Below are positions 18,721 to 51,930 of a DNA stretch of 53,478 bases, in pieces (positions within the stretch are counted from its first letter, which is position 1; every line of letters starts with the position of its first letter). The translations under genes and the position numbers were made by a program. The stretch lies in NCBI GenBank assembly GCA_021795355.1, contig JAJYPL010000006.1:1-53478 (forward strand), written 5' to 3'. A model generated the notes under the pieces. That model was not told where the DNA came from. It did not search any database and saw nothing but the letters and a program-made list of their open reading frames with translations. The stretch is from a bacterium (lineage in GTDB: Bacteria > SZUA-79 > Acidulodesulfobacterales > Acidulodesulfobacteraceae).

Positions 18721-21700
18721 ATGGACAATATAAAACCTAAAATATTTAATATTTTTGGCGAAAAAGCATTAAACGAATCGCTATCCGTTATTATTAAGGA
18801 ACTTGAATCGTCGGATTTTTTCAAGTTTGCCGTCCCCAAAGATTATATATTTCTGCCTTTGCTTGAAGAAAAAATAGATCAAAATAGTTTGTTAATTAGC
18901 GAATTAAAAGAAAATTCCGATAACATAGAAGTTGCTTTAAAAAATTCCGATAGTTTTAATCTTTCCTATGATATAAATTTTTACGACAAAAATAAAATCA
19001 GCGAGTATATAGGTATTTTAAAAAATATATCTGACTCTTCTCTTAAGTCATTGTCTTTTAAAGAAATAACCGACGATTATACATATAAAGAATTAGAAAT
19101 ATTATTTTCCGAAGCTTTCAGGGTTTTATCATACGGTTCATCGTTTTATATGGAGTATATAGGAACTGCGGTTTCCGAATACCTGCTGAAAGGGTATATG
19201 GAATATGCAGGTTTTATAAACGTTTTTCCGGTAGTTTCGGCGGGCGAATACGAGCAGGGGAAAATCAAAATTAATTCTAAAAAAACCGGATTAACCGATA
19301 TATCTAAAAGGCCTAAAAAAGTTTTAATAAATATAGACTTAAAACAGCCTGAAAAATTACTCGAAAGCACCGTTTTCATAAGAGATTTGCACAATACATA
19401 CAATAATTGGGATTTATATCTCGTTTCCGACGACTGGAAATTTTTCGATGAAAATATTTATTTAAAATACTGCTCAGCCGATTATCCTTCTGAAAACATC
19501 GACTATGCCTTATATCTTGATGATGTTAACCCATTTCCTGCTATAGATTATGAATTTAAAAGCATTAACGGCTGCAAACCTGATCTGTTTTATTCTCAGA
19601 AAAATATGGCTAATATCCGCTCTTTTTTAGATAGGCACGGAATTACCGCAGACGATTTTTTTCTTATTATAGATTCCGTTTTTATCGATACGAGAAATAA
19701 AGAAAATATTATAGAAAAATTTAAAACCGAATTTCCTTATATCGTCAAAATCGGCTATAAAACCATTGCCGCAGGAGAAGATTTTAACGGTTTAGCGCTT
19801 AAAGACAAAGCTTTGTTTTTACAGCTTTCCTCTTTTTATGCGGGCGGCGGGTTTAATTATTTTCTTGCGGACGCTATGCATGTTCCGTCTTATAATGCCG
19901 TTTCCGGCGTAATTAATTATAAAAGGGGACTTAAAGACGAGAATTTTGACGTATCGATAGTAATCCCCGCATATAATAATTTTAATTATACTAAACAATG
20001 TGTTTATTCTATATTTAAAAATCATCCGCTTTTGAACTTTGAAATAATTATAATAGACAACGGTTCAACCGACGAAACAAAGGAATATTTTGCTGGATTT
20101 AGCGGTTTAAACAATTTTCGCTTTATTTCAAACGATGAAAATTTAGGCTTTGCTAAAGCCTCTAATATGGGAGCGAAACTTTCGAAATCGCAAAATATAT
20201 TATTTTTAAATAACGATACCGTAGTTTCAAAGGGTGCAATAGACGAACTTTATCATTCAATAAGGGCCGACGACTCCGCCGAATCTTTAAAAATCGGCGC
20301 CGCAGGGCCGCTCCTTTTATATCCCGACAAAAAAATTCAGGAGGCCGGCATCGTTTTTTCGGATAATTTGGTGCCTTACAATGCTTATTCCAGATCGGAT
20401 ATATCCGGATGCAGACAATCTGATATAAAGAATGCAATTTACATAAGGAGCTATAACGCGCTTACGGCGGCGTGCCTTATGCTTAAAAAAGAAATATTCG
20501 AGGCGGCGGGCGGTTTTGACGAGGGCTATATTAACGGCTTCGAGGACGTGGATTTATGCCTTAAATTGCGGGAAACCGGTTACAAATTGATATTTAATCC
20601 AAAAAGCATAATATTTCATTTTGAAGAAAAAACTGCGGGCAGAAAAAAGCACGATATCGAAAATATCAACCGCTTTATGAAAAAGTGGAGGCATAAATAT
20701 AAAAGAGATAATTATATTTTTGCCGAAATGGATAATTTATTTATTTTGAATAAATCTAAAAGCGACGTTTCTAAGTACATTATTTCGCTAAACAGTTTTA
20801 AGTCCGCCGAAAAAAAAATCGACAATTTAATCACAGGCAATAAATATGAAGAAGCATTAAAACTATGCGGCAATATTTTAAAATTAAACGAATATGATAT
20901 AAAAATTCATAAAAAAAGAACCGGCTTAAAAAGAATTTTAAACGCATTTGAATCCCAAAAAGATTTAAAATTATTGCTTAACGAAAAAGAAAAATCTATT
21001 TTTGCATATAAAACTATAATTAATAATATAACTAAACATAATAAAGATATAAAAATATCGTTTGACCAAAATGAAGCCTATCAAATATGGATTGAATACA
21101 ACAATCCTTCCATAAAGGAGCTTGAAGAACAAAGAGTCTTTATATTCGAATTTAAACCTAAGATAAGCGTTATTATGCCCGTGTATAACACGGACAGAGA
21201 ATATTTAATCAAGGCTATAGAATCCGTAATTAACCAGACTTATCAAAACTGGGAGCTTTGCATAGCAGACGACGCATCTACCGAAATTCACGTTAAAGAA
21301 ATTTTAAAATATTACAAGGAAAAGGACGAAAGAATTAAAGTCGTATTTAGAGCCGAAAACGGCCATATTTCCAAAACTTCCAACAGCGCTCTTTCTATTG
21401 CTACAGGGGATTATATAGCCCTGCTGGACCACGACGACGAACTGCCGGAATATGCCTTATTTTTCGTAGTAAAGGAAATCAACGAACATCCGGACGCAAA
21501 GCTAATTTACAGCGACGAAGACAAGCTGTATTTCGACGGCAGCAGGTTCTTGAGAGTCTTGCCTTATTTTAAATCGGACTGGAACCCCGACCTTTTTTTA
21601 TCGCAGAATTTTATAAGCCATTTGGGAGTTTATAAAAAGTCGATAGTCGATGAAATAGGAGGTTTCAGGGAAGGTTACGAAGGTTCTCAGGATTATGACC

Positions 21701-35613: not shown

Positions 35614-35807
35614 TAATAAGAAGAATAAGAAACATATTTATTTATTCACTTCATATTTTTACGCAAAAAAGACATGCTTTTTAAAACGCGGAAAAACATA
35701 TCGACTAAGTTTGCAGGTTTTTAATAATTGTATAGTTTATTAATTGTTTATTAATTGTTTATTTATTTGCAAATCCATTTAAAAATAGCGCTTAAAAAAC
35801 AATCTAT

Positions 35808-49300: not shown

Positions 49301-49567
49301 ATAGGTATCAGACTAACATTAACAATAACCCAAAAGGTGGCTTATAATATATTAGACCATGTGTCTAATAATTTTATCACTAAATATAAAAATGGGCAAC
49401 GAAAAAATTACATCATTCGGCGGCAGTATATTATTAGCCGACTATATTAAGAAATTAGGCCTTGAAGAAAGATTGGATTCTTCTTTACCTAAAGCTGGAA
49501 GCAACAGAGGCTATAAACCCTCCCATAAAATATTATCTTTAATCTCTTCTATTATGTTGTCCGGAAT

Positions 49568-49616
49568 ATCTTTTGCCTGCGCTTATAAAAGCATGTCTTT
49601 TATGCAGGCAAAAGAT
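49568..49616. repeat. Two-tier hairpin 1 in the transposase
   Basis: Outer arms of 13 bases are ATCTTTTGCCTGC and GCAGGCAAAAGAT. A GCTT bulge follows the left arm. The inner stem is ATAAAAG/CTTTTAT with a CATGT loop. Read in frame. Confidence 0.9.
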
Positions 49617-49878
49617 GGCAGATACGTTAATATAGACCGTTTAAGAAAAGACGATACTATTAAAACTATATGGGACTTTAACAATATCCCCTACAGCACT
49701 AAGATAGGAGAATGGTTTTTAAAGAACGGCAAAAGCAGCGGAGACTTCGCTACAGGAAAGACTAAAAAAATAATTGACGATATCTCATTAGATTTAGCCA
49801 TAAAGGCATTGAAAGAAAAAAATATAAAAGAAGCAATATTTGACGCCGATGTATCCCTTATAGAAGCAAACAAAAAGC

Positions 49879-49928
49879 ATATTCTTTTGCTGAAAAAGCA
49901 TGCTTTTTCAATGCGCGCAAAAGAATAT
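49879..49928. repeat. Two-tier hairpin 2 in the transposase (opposite orientation)
   Basis: Outer arms of 12 bases are ATATTCTTTTGC and GCAAAAGAATAT. The inner palindrome is TGAAAAAGCATGCTTTTTCA. A bulge ATGCGC lies on the right side. Read in frame. Confidence 0.9.
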
Positions 49929-50026
49929 ATTAAAAAAACATACAAAGGTTTTAGAGGAATGGGTTCTTTATTAGGTTTCGTAAACGGATACTGTTTATAT
50001 TCCGATTTTAGAAATGATATAAACAG

Positions 50027-50075
50027 GTTATTTTGCACGTTTATAAAAAGCATGTCTTTTTATGTGCAAAATAAC
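50027..50075. repeat. Two-tier hairpin 3 in the transposase
   Basis: Outer arms are GTTATTTTGCAC and GTGCAAAATAAC. A GTTT bulge follows the left arm. The inner stem is ATAAAAAG/CTTTTTAT with a CATGT loop. Read in frame. Confidence 0.9.
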
Positions 50076-50173
50076 ATGTTTATGGTTCACGCCTCAGTCG
50101 GCTTACTTGATCAGCTTAAATACATCCACAAAAAGTTATCAGATAACGGCATAAAAATGGTTTACAGATCCGC

Positions 50174-50222
50174 ATCTTCTGCCTGCATCAAAAACATGTT
50201 TTGATAAACGCAGGCAGAAGAT
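50174..50222. repeat. Two-tier hairpin 4 in the transposase (opposite orientation)
   Basis: Outer arms of 13 bases are ATCTTCTGCCTGC and GCAGGCAGAAGAT. The inner stem is ATCAAAA/TTTTGAT around ACATG. An AAAC bulge lies on the right, the reverse complement of GTTT. This copy carries the TGA that ends the frame. Confidence 0.9.
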
Positions 50223-50345
50223 ATGCAGGATACGATTCTAATATAATAGAATACTGCTCCAATAACAGCATAACCTATTACATAAGGGCCAAAGAATTTA
50301 ACTCTTTTGAAGACCTCATAAAAGAGGCAAGAAACCGAATAAGAG

Positions 50346-50660
50346 ATGAACATGTCTGAATTTATAGCCGTAGATACTAATTTTATCTTATCTGTATTGA
50401 TAAAAAGAAATAATACCGAAAAAGCATTGAAAATATTATCAAACGCTATAGAAAATTATGAAAAAAGTTTTGTTCCGAATCATGTTATAGTTGAAACTAT
50501 TTATGTTCTTGAAGGCTTGCATAAATATGAAAGTAAAAATATAAATTTTGGAGATGCTTTAATTGCAATTATTGTTTTAAATAAAGGGATTAATAAAATT
50601 ATATCATTCGATTCACATTTTTTAAAAATTAAGGAATTTGAAGTCATTAATTCTATTTAA
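50346..50660 (+). CDS. Orphan PIN-domain protein, shortened
   Basis: A PIN toxin of 104 residues with FIAVDTNFILSVLIKRNN, HVIVETIYVLEG, INFGDALIAIIVLNKG and IISFDSHFLKI. All four acidic positions are present, but the segment between EGLHKYE and SKNINF is about 25 residues shorter than in typical PIN proteins. It has no antitoxin gene. Its start lies inside the transposase remnant, with no clear RBS. It may be inactive or a recombinant product. Confidence 0.65.
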   Translation: MNMSEFIAVDTNFILSVLIKRNNTEKALKILSNAIENYEKSFVPNHVIVETIYVLEGLHKYESKNINFGDALIAIIVLNKGINKIISFDSHFLKIKEFEVINSI

Positions 50661-51086: not shown

Positions 51087-51497
51087 ATGGAATTTTTAAA
51101 AATGCACAAACAAACTATAATTGATTACCTTAAATCTAAAATGCCGAATCTTGAAGCTGTTATAGTATTCGGTAGTTATGCGAATAATTCGGCAGACAAA
51201 GATAGCGATATAGATATAGCTTTTTTAAGTAAAGATAAAATTTCTAATATACAAAGATGGCAATTACAAGAAGAATTAGCCTCCAAATTAAATAAAAATG
51301 TAGATTTAGTTAATTTAGACATTGCAAATGATGTTTTTAAATTTCAAGTAGCTTCACAAGGCGTTGTCATATTTGCCGCTCGCATGCTGGATATAGAATT
51401 TTATTTAGACAATATATATACTGCATATTTACAGCTAAACGACGACAGAAAAGCAATTTTAGAAGACATAAATAATGGTGTATATTATGCAGGATGA
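51087..51497 (+). CDS. mntA: Minimal nucleotidyltransferase antitoxin MntA
   Basis: The motif G29-S30, ten residues, then D41-I-D43 is the GSx10DxD signature of MNT-fold enzymes. In MntA-HepT systems this protein AMPylates the HEPN toxin on its tyrosine, silencing it. At 136 residues it is full length. It overlaps hepT by 23 bases. Confidence 0.88.
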   Translation: MEFLKMHKQTIIDYLKSKMPNLEAVIVFGSYANNSADKDSDIDIAFLSKDKISNIQRWQLQEELASKLNKNVDLVNLDIANDVFKFQVASQGVVIFAARMLDIEFYLDNIYTAYLQLNDDRKAILEDINNGVYYAG

Positions 51498-51930
51498 TTT
51501 AATAATTAATAAAATAGGCACAATAAATAAATGCATAGACAGAATAAAATATGAATATGAAGAATCAAAAGAACTGTTTAAAAAAAATTTTACTAAGCAA
51601 GACGCCGTTATATTAAATTTAGAAAGAGCATCTCAAGCAGCAATAGATATCGCTTCCCATATAGTCAGGATTAAAAAATTAGGCATTCCGCAAACAAATA
51701 GAGATGTTTTTGTATTTTTAGAAAATGCAAATTTAATTTCAAATAAAACCAGCAAAAAAATGCAGGCTATGGTTGGTTTTAGAAACATAGCAGTTCATGA
51801 CTACCAGACTCTGGATTTAGATATAATAGTAGAAATTTTAGAAAAACATTTAAATGATTTTGTAGAGTTTATAAATCAGATTATTAAATCTAACGAAAGT
51901 GTAATTGTAAAAATTCAACGACCTAAATAA
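51475..51930 (+). CDS. hepT: HEPN-domain ribonuclease toxin HepT (DUF86)
   Basis: The HEPN catalytic motif R99-x4-H104-x-Y106 (RNIAVHDY) is intact, with the tyrosine that MntA modifies. The protein is helical (ILNLERASQAAIDIASHIV) and 151 residues long. It is translationally coupled to mntA by a 23-base overlap. A complete and plausible active module. Confidence 0.88.
   Translation: MVYIMQDDLIINKIGTINKCIDRIKYEYEESKELFKKNFTKQDAVILNLERASQAAIDIASHIVRIKKLGIPQTNRDVFVFLENANLISNKTSKKMQAMVGFRNIAVHDYQTLDLDIIVEILEKHLNDFVEFINQIIKSNESVIVKIQRPK

Follow-up and report, generated by a model that had tools for sequence, protein, structure and literature searches.

How did a single transposase gene come to hold four copies of one folded palindrome, and by what means could such a palindrome move? 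The gene lies in a stretch of 53,478 nucleotides (hereafter the window: the whole stretch of DNA that was analysed) on contig JAJYPL010000006.1 of an Acidulodesulfobacteraceae genome (assembly GCA_021795355.1), where the first-pass annotation had pointed out four two-tier hairpins inside an IS1380-type gene at 49568-50222. They are present there and follow the plan it described, with an outer stem, a one-sided bulge (4 bases in copies 1, 3, and 4; 6 bases in copy 2), an inner A/T stem, and a CATG loop; the plus strand carries copies 1 and 3 and the minus strand copies 2 and 4 (Table 1). Two details have to be amended. The length of 49-50 bp given to the units is too short, because comparison with empty sites delimits inserted units of 52, 53, 68, and 52 nt; and copy 2, whose outer arm was thought to come partly from the flanks, has both arms within its own 53 nt. 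As RNA, every copy had a better fold than any of its 200 dinucleotide shuffles (z-scores of -5.1, -3.5, -6.5, and -6.9 for copies 1 to 4). Scanning the window with Rfam at gathering scores gave no match.

Table 1. Hairpin copies and their host gene in the window, and target bases replaced at the sites resolved by script.
Feature	Position	Strand	Description	Replaced bases
IS1380-family transposase open frame	49359..50204	+	281 aa; broken by hairpins, ended by copy 4	
Hairpin copy 1	49566..49617	+	52 nt, ATAT..ATG; replaces 4 target bases; net +48, in frame	
Hairpin copy 2	49878..49930	-	53 nt; replaces 5 target bases; net +48, in frame	
Hairpin copy 3	50017..50084	+	68 nt, three tiers; replaces 5 target bases; net +63, in frame	
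Hairpin copy 4	50173..50224	-	52 nt; replaces 5 target bases; net +47, frame shifted	
Fifth copy, spacer	about 35652..35701	-	50 nt, ATAT start, ATG end	
Site 0				GCAGT
Site 1				GAAG
Site 2				GATTC
Site 3				GTAAT
Site 4				AGAGT, GGAAT or AGAAT, by homologue
IS3 A				GACG
IS3 B				GCAGA
IS3 C				GAAA
IS605 left end, L163				GAAA or GGAA
IS605 tnpA, L163				GGACC or GAGCT
Single-tier hairpin of L099				GAAA or GACA

The host gene is of the IS1380 type, as had been proposed: model NF033539 matches an uninterrupted relative (locus L012, 418 aa) at 1.8e-66, above the curated cut-off, and matches the interrupted frame of the window at E 1.7e-14 with 53 bits, the curated cut-off being 180 bits. 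IS1380 relatives occur in 16 of the 61 genomes searched, all 16 in the family of the window's genome, and eight loci with this transposase lie in the metagenome-assembled HSP2.bin5, SKS5.bin53, YF1.bin133, and TL1-5.bin36. The effects on the frame are also those first described. Copies 1 to 3 add 16, 16, and 21 codons and keep the frame because 52-4, 53-5, and 68-5 are multiples of three; copy 4 loses it because 52-5 gives 47, which is not, and the stop lies inside this copy at 50204. Among the nine resolved coding sites, the frame is kept at six and lost at three. Directly after the truncated transposase the window encodes a PIN-domain protein (50346-50660, plus strand), and further on two adjacent genes (51087-51930, plus strand) match the NCBIfam models of the MntA antitoxin and the HepT toxin, a type VII pair.

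We aligned the gene of the window with seven IS1380 relatives, some of them partial, the check that the first-pass annotation had suggested, and its outcome was positive: the same sites hold a hairpin in some copies of the gene and none in others. At site 1 there is no hairpin in any of the six relatives of this alignment that cover it; L134, a locus outside the alignment, has one. At site 2 a hairpin is present in L014, the other six having either an empty site or a deletion there. Site 3 carries one in L010, L013, and L026, is empty in L011, L012, and L025, and is not covered by L014; and site 4 is empty in the five relatives that cover it. A further copy lies early in the gene in L013 and L014 (site 0). 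Because transposase homologues in related genomes lack the hairpins, these are insertions.

What happens to the target was read by a script that compared each filled site with one to three empty homologues, which are homologues and not isogenic strains. The script resolved 11 of 13 sites (all but L044 and L169), and at each of the 11 either four or five target bases are replaced (Table 1), the exact cut points depending on the reading of the ends as ATAT and ATG because these were set in the search patterns (ATG..GCG for the single-tier case). Two further script comparisons, of IS3 B against L051 and of IS3 C against L074, gave no result, their flanks having aligned elsewhere. By eye, four bases are missing at L044, five (GTCGT) at IS3 B compared with L051, and GAAA at another IS605 left end (L162 compared with L108). 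At 10 of the 11 sites all homologues with a result have G as the first replaced base; at site 4, G comes first in one of three homologues and A in the other two, including the top-scoring one.

The ends and their surroundings were then considered over 87 places. An ATAT start and an ATG end lie within a few bases of their expected positions in 75 of the 87, the other 12 having no clear ATAT or ATG end and being set aside; 61 places distinct by their flanks remained, some of which share a repeat context and are not fully independent. Direct repeats of 3-9 bases are found at the junctions of none of the 61 distinct places, and direct repeats of 2 bases at three, below the shuffled mean of 5.6. 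G or C is the base immediately outside the element on the left at 55 of 61 places and on the right at 49, in a window with 34% G+C. At six of the 61 places the element is centred between complementary flanks at least 6 bases long (shuffled mean 0.64, maximum 5 in 500 shuffles), and because they are only six the preference for hairpin loops is modest; symmetric landing in loops is weak as a general rule. Movement being read from the comparison of homologues and not from direct observation, the junctions show an element that is there or not there at given sites, in either strand, without target duplication and, where it is there, with four or five bases of the empty allele missing. That this is mobile insertion with replacement of bases seems to us very probable.

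The element also enters its own kind. Three empty single-tier hairpins of 22 nt are known to us (L038, L049, and L159), with the form ATATAAAC-five bases-CCGTTTATG or a near variant of it, and in L093-L095 and L148 a whole two-tier element replaces, by eye, the five central bases of such a hairpin; the flanks in L148 equal those of the empty single-tier copy in L038. In L134 an element lies within the site-0 element, with GAAA missing if the first base is a changed A (again by eye). In the window, copy 3 is likewise composite, a two-tier element lying within a short ATATAAAC..TTTATG hairpin, and in L010 and L132 the inner element keeps its ATAT start and ATG end. In these cases elements lie within hairpins that share their plan, and the replacement rule holds there as well. 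The ordinary two tiers may themselves have arisen by an older round of nesting, the inner tier being read as a former insertion from sequence likeness and not from an empty outer hairpin; if the two-tier shape was made by nesting, the one-sided bulge, for the first-pass annotation a shape that a single-strand-acting enzyme could recognise, would instead be the remnant of the loop of the outer hairpin once entered by the inner one.

How far does the element reach? A covariance model (R1) was built from seven copies, with 97.9% of cells paired and 15 of 20 pairs changed on both sides. At E<=0.05 it matches 27 of the 30 genomes sampled from the phylum, all of one family (f1), leaving three without a match, and none of 31 genomes of other families. 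At E<=0.001 there are matches in 25 of the 30, with between 0 and at least 51 rows per genome. Summed over genomes, with at most 150 candidates scored in each, the rows number at least 273, some of them being both strands of one place. Sixty-one distinct aligned rows, drawn from 97 matches, pair in 98.2% of cells, and 18 of the 20 pairs vary in both partners; both controls lie far below these values. The rows include at least four second-strand readings and were aligned to the model, which makes them lean towards its structure. In the window's own genome (66% complete) 12 distinct places reach E<=0.001, and the window holds five of these. The fifth, in a spacer, is absent from the first-pass annotation; it scores 67.9 bits with R1, which was built partly from that copy, and folds weakly (z of -1.4, with 15 of 200 shuffles as good). 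Viral contigs gave no exact match to one 24-base pattern. Among the genomes tested, the element is confined to one bacterial phylum.

The initial suggestion that a single transposase is the target is not supported, as copies are also found in spacers, other repeats, a methyltransferase gene, and elements of the IS3 and IS605 kinds. Seventeen places lie in or directly beside 11 copies of the IS1380 gene in seven genomes, and this gene is therefore a frequent host, not the only one. Many copies occupy spacers, often within palindromic repeats of the type GTCATTCCCGC..GCGGGAATCC. Such dispersed palindromes recur at many loci, L030, L059, L068, and L087 among them, and are common hosts of the hairpin, and so are repeats of the form GTCATTGCGAGC..GAAGCAATC in genomes of the phylum (again at many loci). 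IS3-type transposase genes with rve domains are interrupted by copies in L051, L048, and L074; IS605 carries them in its left ends (L163 and L162) and in its tnpA gene (L163). In the methyltransferase gene of genome G019, about 36 residues at the hairpin copy are absent from all 12 aligned homologues, and one homologue (L196) has unrelated residues at the insertion point. G022 has a copy in frame ahead of the purC domain; purC matches were obtained in 17 of 19 searched genomes of the phylum, and because all 17 align only from residue 42 or later, the stretch with this copy may be a leader and not part of the protein. An 84-kb contig of G004 (C25; L059-L061, L063, L069, L070, and L152) holds at least nine of the 52 R1 rows of that genome, and it also bears the only Y1 match of G004, at 19854-20192. 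Single-tier hairpins travel too, or so it would seem from L099 (1340-1410), where a 22-nt hairpin with a CATG loop replaces four bases in an IS605-type left end and is absent from the related elements L100, L101, and L103. Finally, short derivatives of IS1380 (L015, L024, and L028, in G008, G014, and G029) consist of the left end with a hairpin and lack parts of the gene, and they look as if IS copies carry hairpins around.

Taken together, we consider it probable, with moderate confidence, that the hairpin is a non-autonomous mobile palindromic element of about 50-54 nt that runs from ATAT to ATG and consists of nested hairpins. The explanation that comes next, which we hold to be unlikely, needs no dedicated enzyme: hairpins formed by single strands would be used as filler in the repair of breaks at palindromes or gaps, a few bases being lost, or would result from template switching. 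The loss of four or five bases, the landing of some copies in hairpin loops, and a search that produced no candidate enzyme among those sought agree with it; filler would however be expected to vary, whereas the ends are constant in 75 of 87 places and the loss at resolved sites is always of four or five bases.

That search concerned, first, the Y1 (HUH) transposases, which bind bulged hairpins and move single-stranded DNA without target duplication, and which could have moved REP-like hairpins in the way of the RAYT or IS200/IS605 enzymes. The irregular shape of the hairpin, the junctions without target duplication, and the position of some copies within other palindromes all suit such an origin, and Y1 genes occur in part of the phylum, with copies in two Y1 stretches of G026 (two in L163, and one near the gene in L162). 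REPs inside palindromes and reading frames are, moreover, described in PMC3733652. Against it stand the lack of the defining GTAG or CGTC end tag, its place being taken by ATAT and ATG ends in 75 of 87 places, and the failure of Y1 (PF01797, sought in 61 genomes) to follow copy number among genomes of the phylum: two copy-rich drafts, G019 (97% complete) and G013 (91%), have no Y1 match despite 19 and 17 R1 rows, and G002 has a Y1 match and one weak R1 row. A search of eight Y1 loci with the model yielded a single weak match (E 0.06), from which the single-tier hairpin of L099 was reached, and nothing up to E 0.1 came from ten RAYT-like stretches (L152-L161). In the upstream regions of the eight Y1 loci a related hairpin is found only in L099, and the copies in the left ends of L162 and L163 are insertions, absent from the relatives L108 and L103. 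Y1 transposition is not known to entail a loss of target bases, unlike the loss of four or five seen here. We regard a Y1 origin as somewhat less probable even than repair filler.

Other genes fared no better as companions of the element. Reverse transcriptase (PF00078) is present in 13 of the 30 phylum genomes, and copy number does not track it. No gene family recurs near more than two distinct places over 58 loci and 174 frames, the 58 including several re-fetched stretches of one place; the recurring neighbours are IS3 and an IS1380-like gene, and a neighbour family is shared by five other pairs of loci (L039/L119, L040/L130, L042/L055, L045/L148, and L055/L119).

Ordinary MITEs, mobilised by a DDE transposase such as that of the IS1380 element itself, would likewise be short, A/T-rich, dispersed inverted repeats. 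This reading is disfavoured because target duplications are absent: all 61 junctions lack a direct repeat of 3-9 bases, and those of 2 bases number three where shuffling gives 5.6, which leaves such a MITE very improbable. That the palindromes are mere chance or the ordinary coding sequence of a transposase lineage, for which the frame open through three hairpins might speak, is refuted and has next to no probability left, as homologues lack the residues, no shuffle folds as well, and 27 of 30 phylum genomes match the model.

If the hairpin is a mobile element in its own right, as we favour, how might it move? Because no mobilising gene was found among those sought, the mechanism is inferred from the junctions, and these suggest a dedicated enzyme acting on single strands, a serious candidate to which we would give slightly less than even credence. 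The steps could be as follows: 1) a putative enzyme acting in trans would open the target with a stagger or gap of four to five bases; 2) a folded single-stranded hairpin would be joined into the opened target; 3) the target overhang would be lost on joining, and with it the four or five replaced bases; 4) hairpins would grow by insertion into one another's loops, their layers becoming records of successive jumps; and 5) the transposase gene would be a bystander that collects copies, and presumably a carrier of these copies between genomes. The most encompassing version, of a minimal mobile DNA restricted to one phylum, whose enzyme swaps four or five bases, the first of them mostly a G, for a folded hairpin and whose tiers are successive jumps, is more tentative again than the enzyme by itself.

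Such a system matters in several respects. To our knowledge, the spread of palindromes embedded in proteins, such as those of Rickettsia (RPEs), lacks an explanation, the target duplication of RPEs being marked '?' in Table 1 of PMC2229807. Many pairs of filled and empty sites that obey one rule, with four or five bases lost and no duplication, and hairpins nested in successive layers, limit the kinds of chemistry that need to be considered, and a comparison of genomes could here lead to the mobiliser. The element is also a source of small in-frame insertions in proteins. Our search of the literature, mostly outside subscription journals, returned no description of the element or of palindrome insertion with replacement of bases.

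Among known repeats, YPAL and other bacterial MITEs are also short and non-autonomous. YPAL targets span or adjoin dyad symmetry, and its insertions make target duplications of 3-26 bp, according to PMC2229807; here there is no duplication of 3-9 bases. The REPs of the GTAG and CGTC types are small high-copy hairpins that sometimes lie inside reading frames or palindromes, as PMC3733652 reports. The present element differs in having no end tag, and the Y1 (RAYT) gene was not found in two copy-rich draft genomes. Membership among the REPs was considered and rejected on these two features, the GTAG/CGTC tag and the RAYT gene partner.

In the double hairpins of fungal mitochondria, the hairpins stand side by side, whereas the tiers are nested in our case. 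Those double-hairpin elements and the mitochondrial GC clusters are tiny hairpins for which mobility has been argued, with the mobiliser unsettled in the accounts of PMC4478555 and PMC7218506, and the yeast GC clusters are flanked by direct repeats of AG or ACT that resemble target duplications (PMC4478555). In contrast to the yeast clusters, bases are lost at our junctions.

The palindromic elements of Wolbachia occur in spacers and in frame in protein genes, as do the copies described here. The resemblance to the Rickettsia elements that the first-pass annotation proposed is likewise a fair one, as RPEs are dispersed palindromes of 105-146 bp that occupy spacers and lie in frame within protein genes (PMC2229807), and the hairpin shares this way of life. 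Compared by description, however, ours is distinct from the RPEs in its length of about 50 nt (52-68 in the window), its two tiers and constant ATAT and ATG ends, the replacement of four or five target bases, and its nesting within itself.
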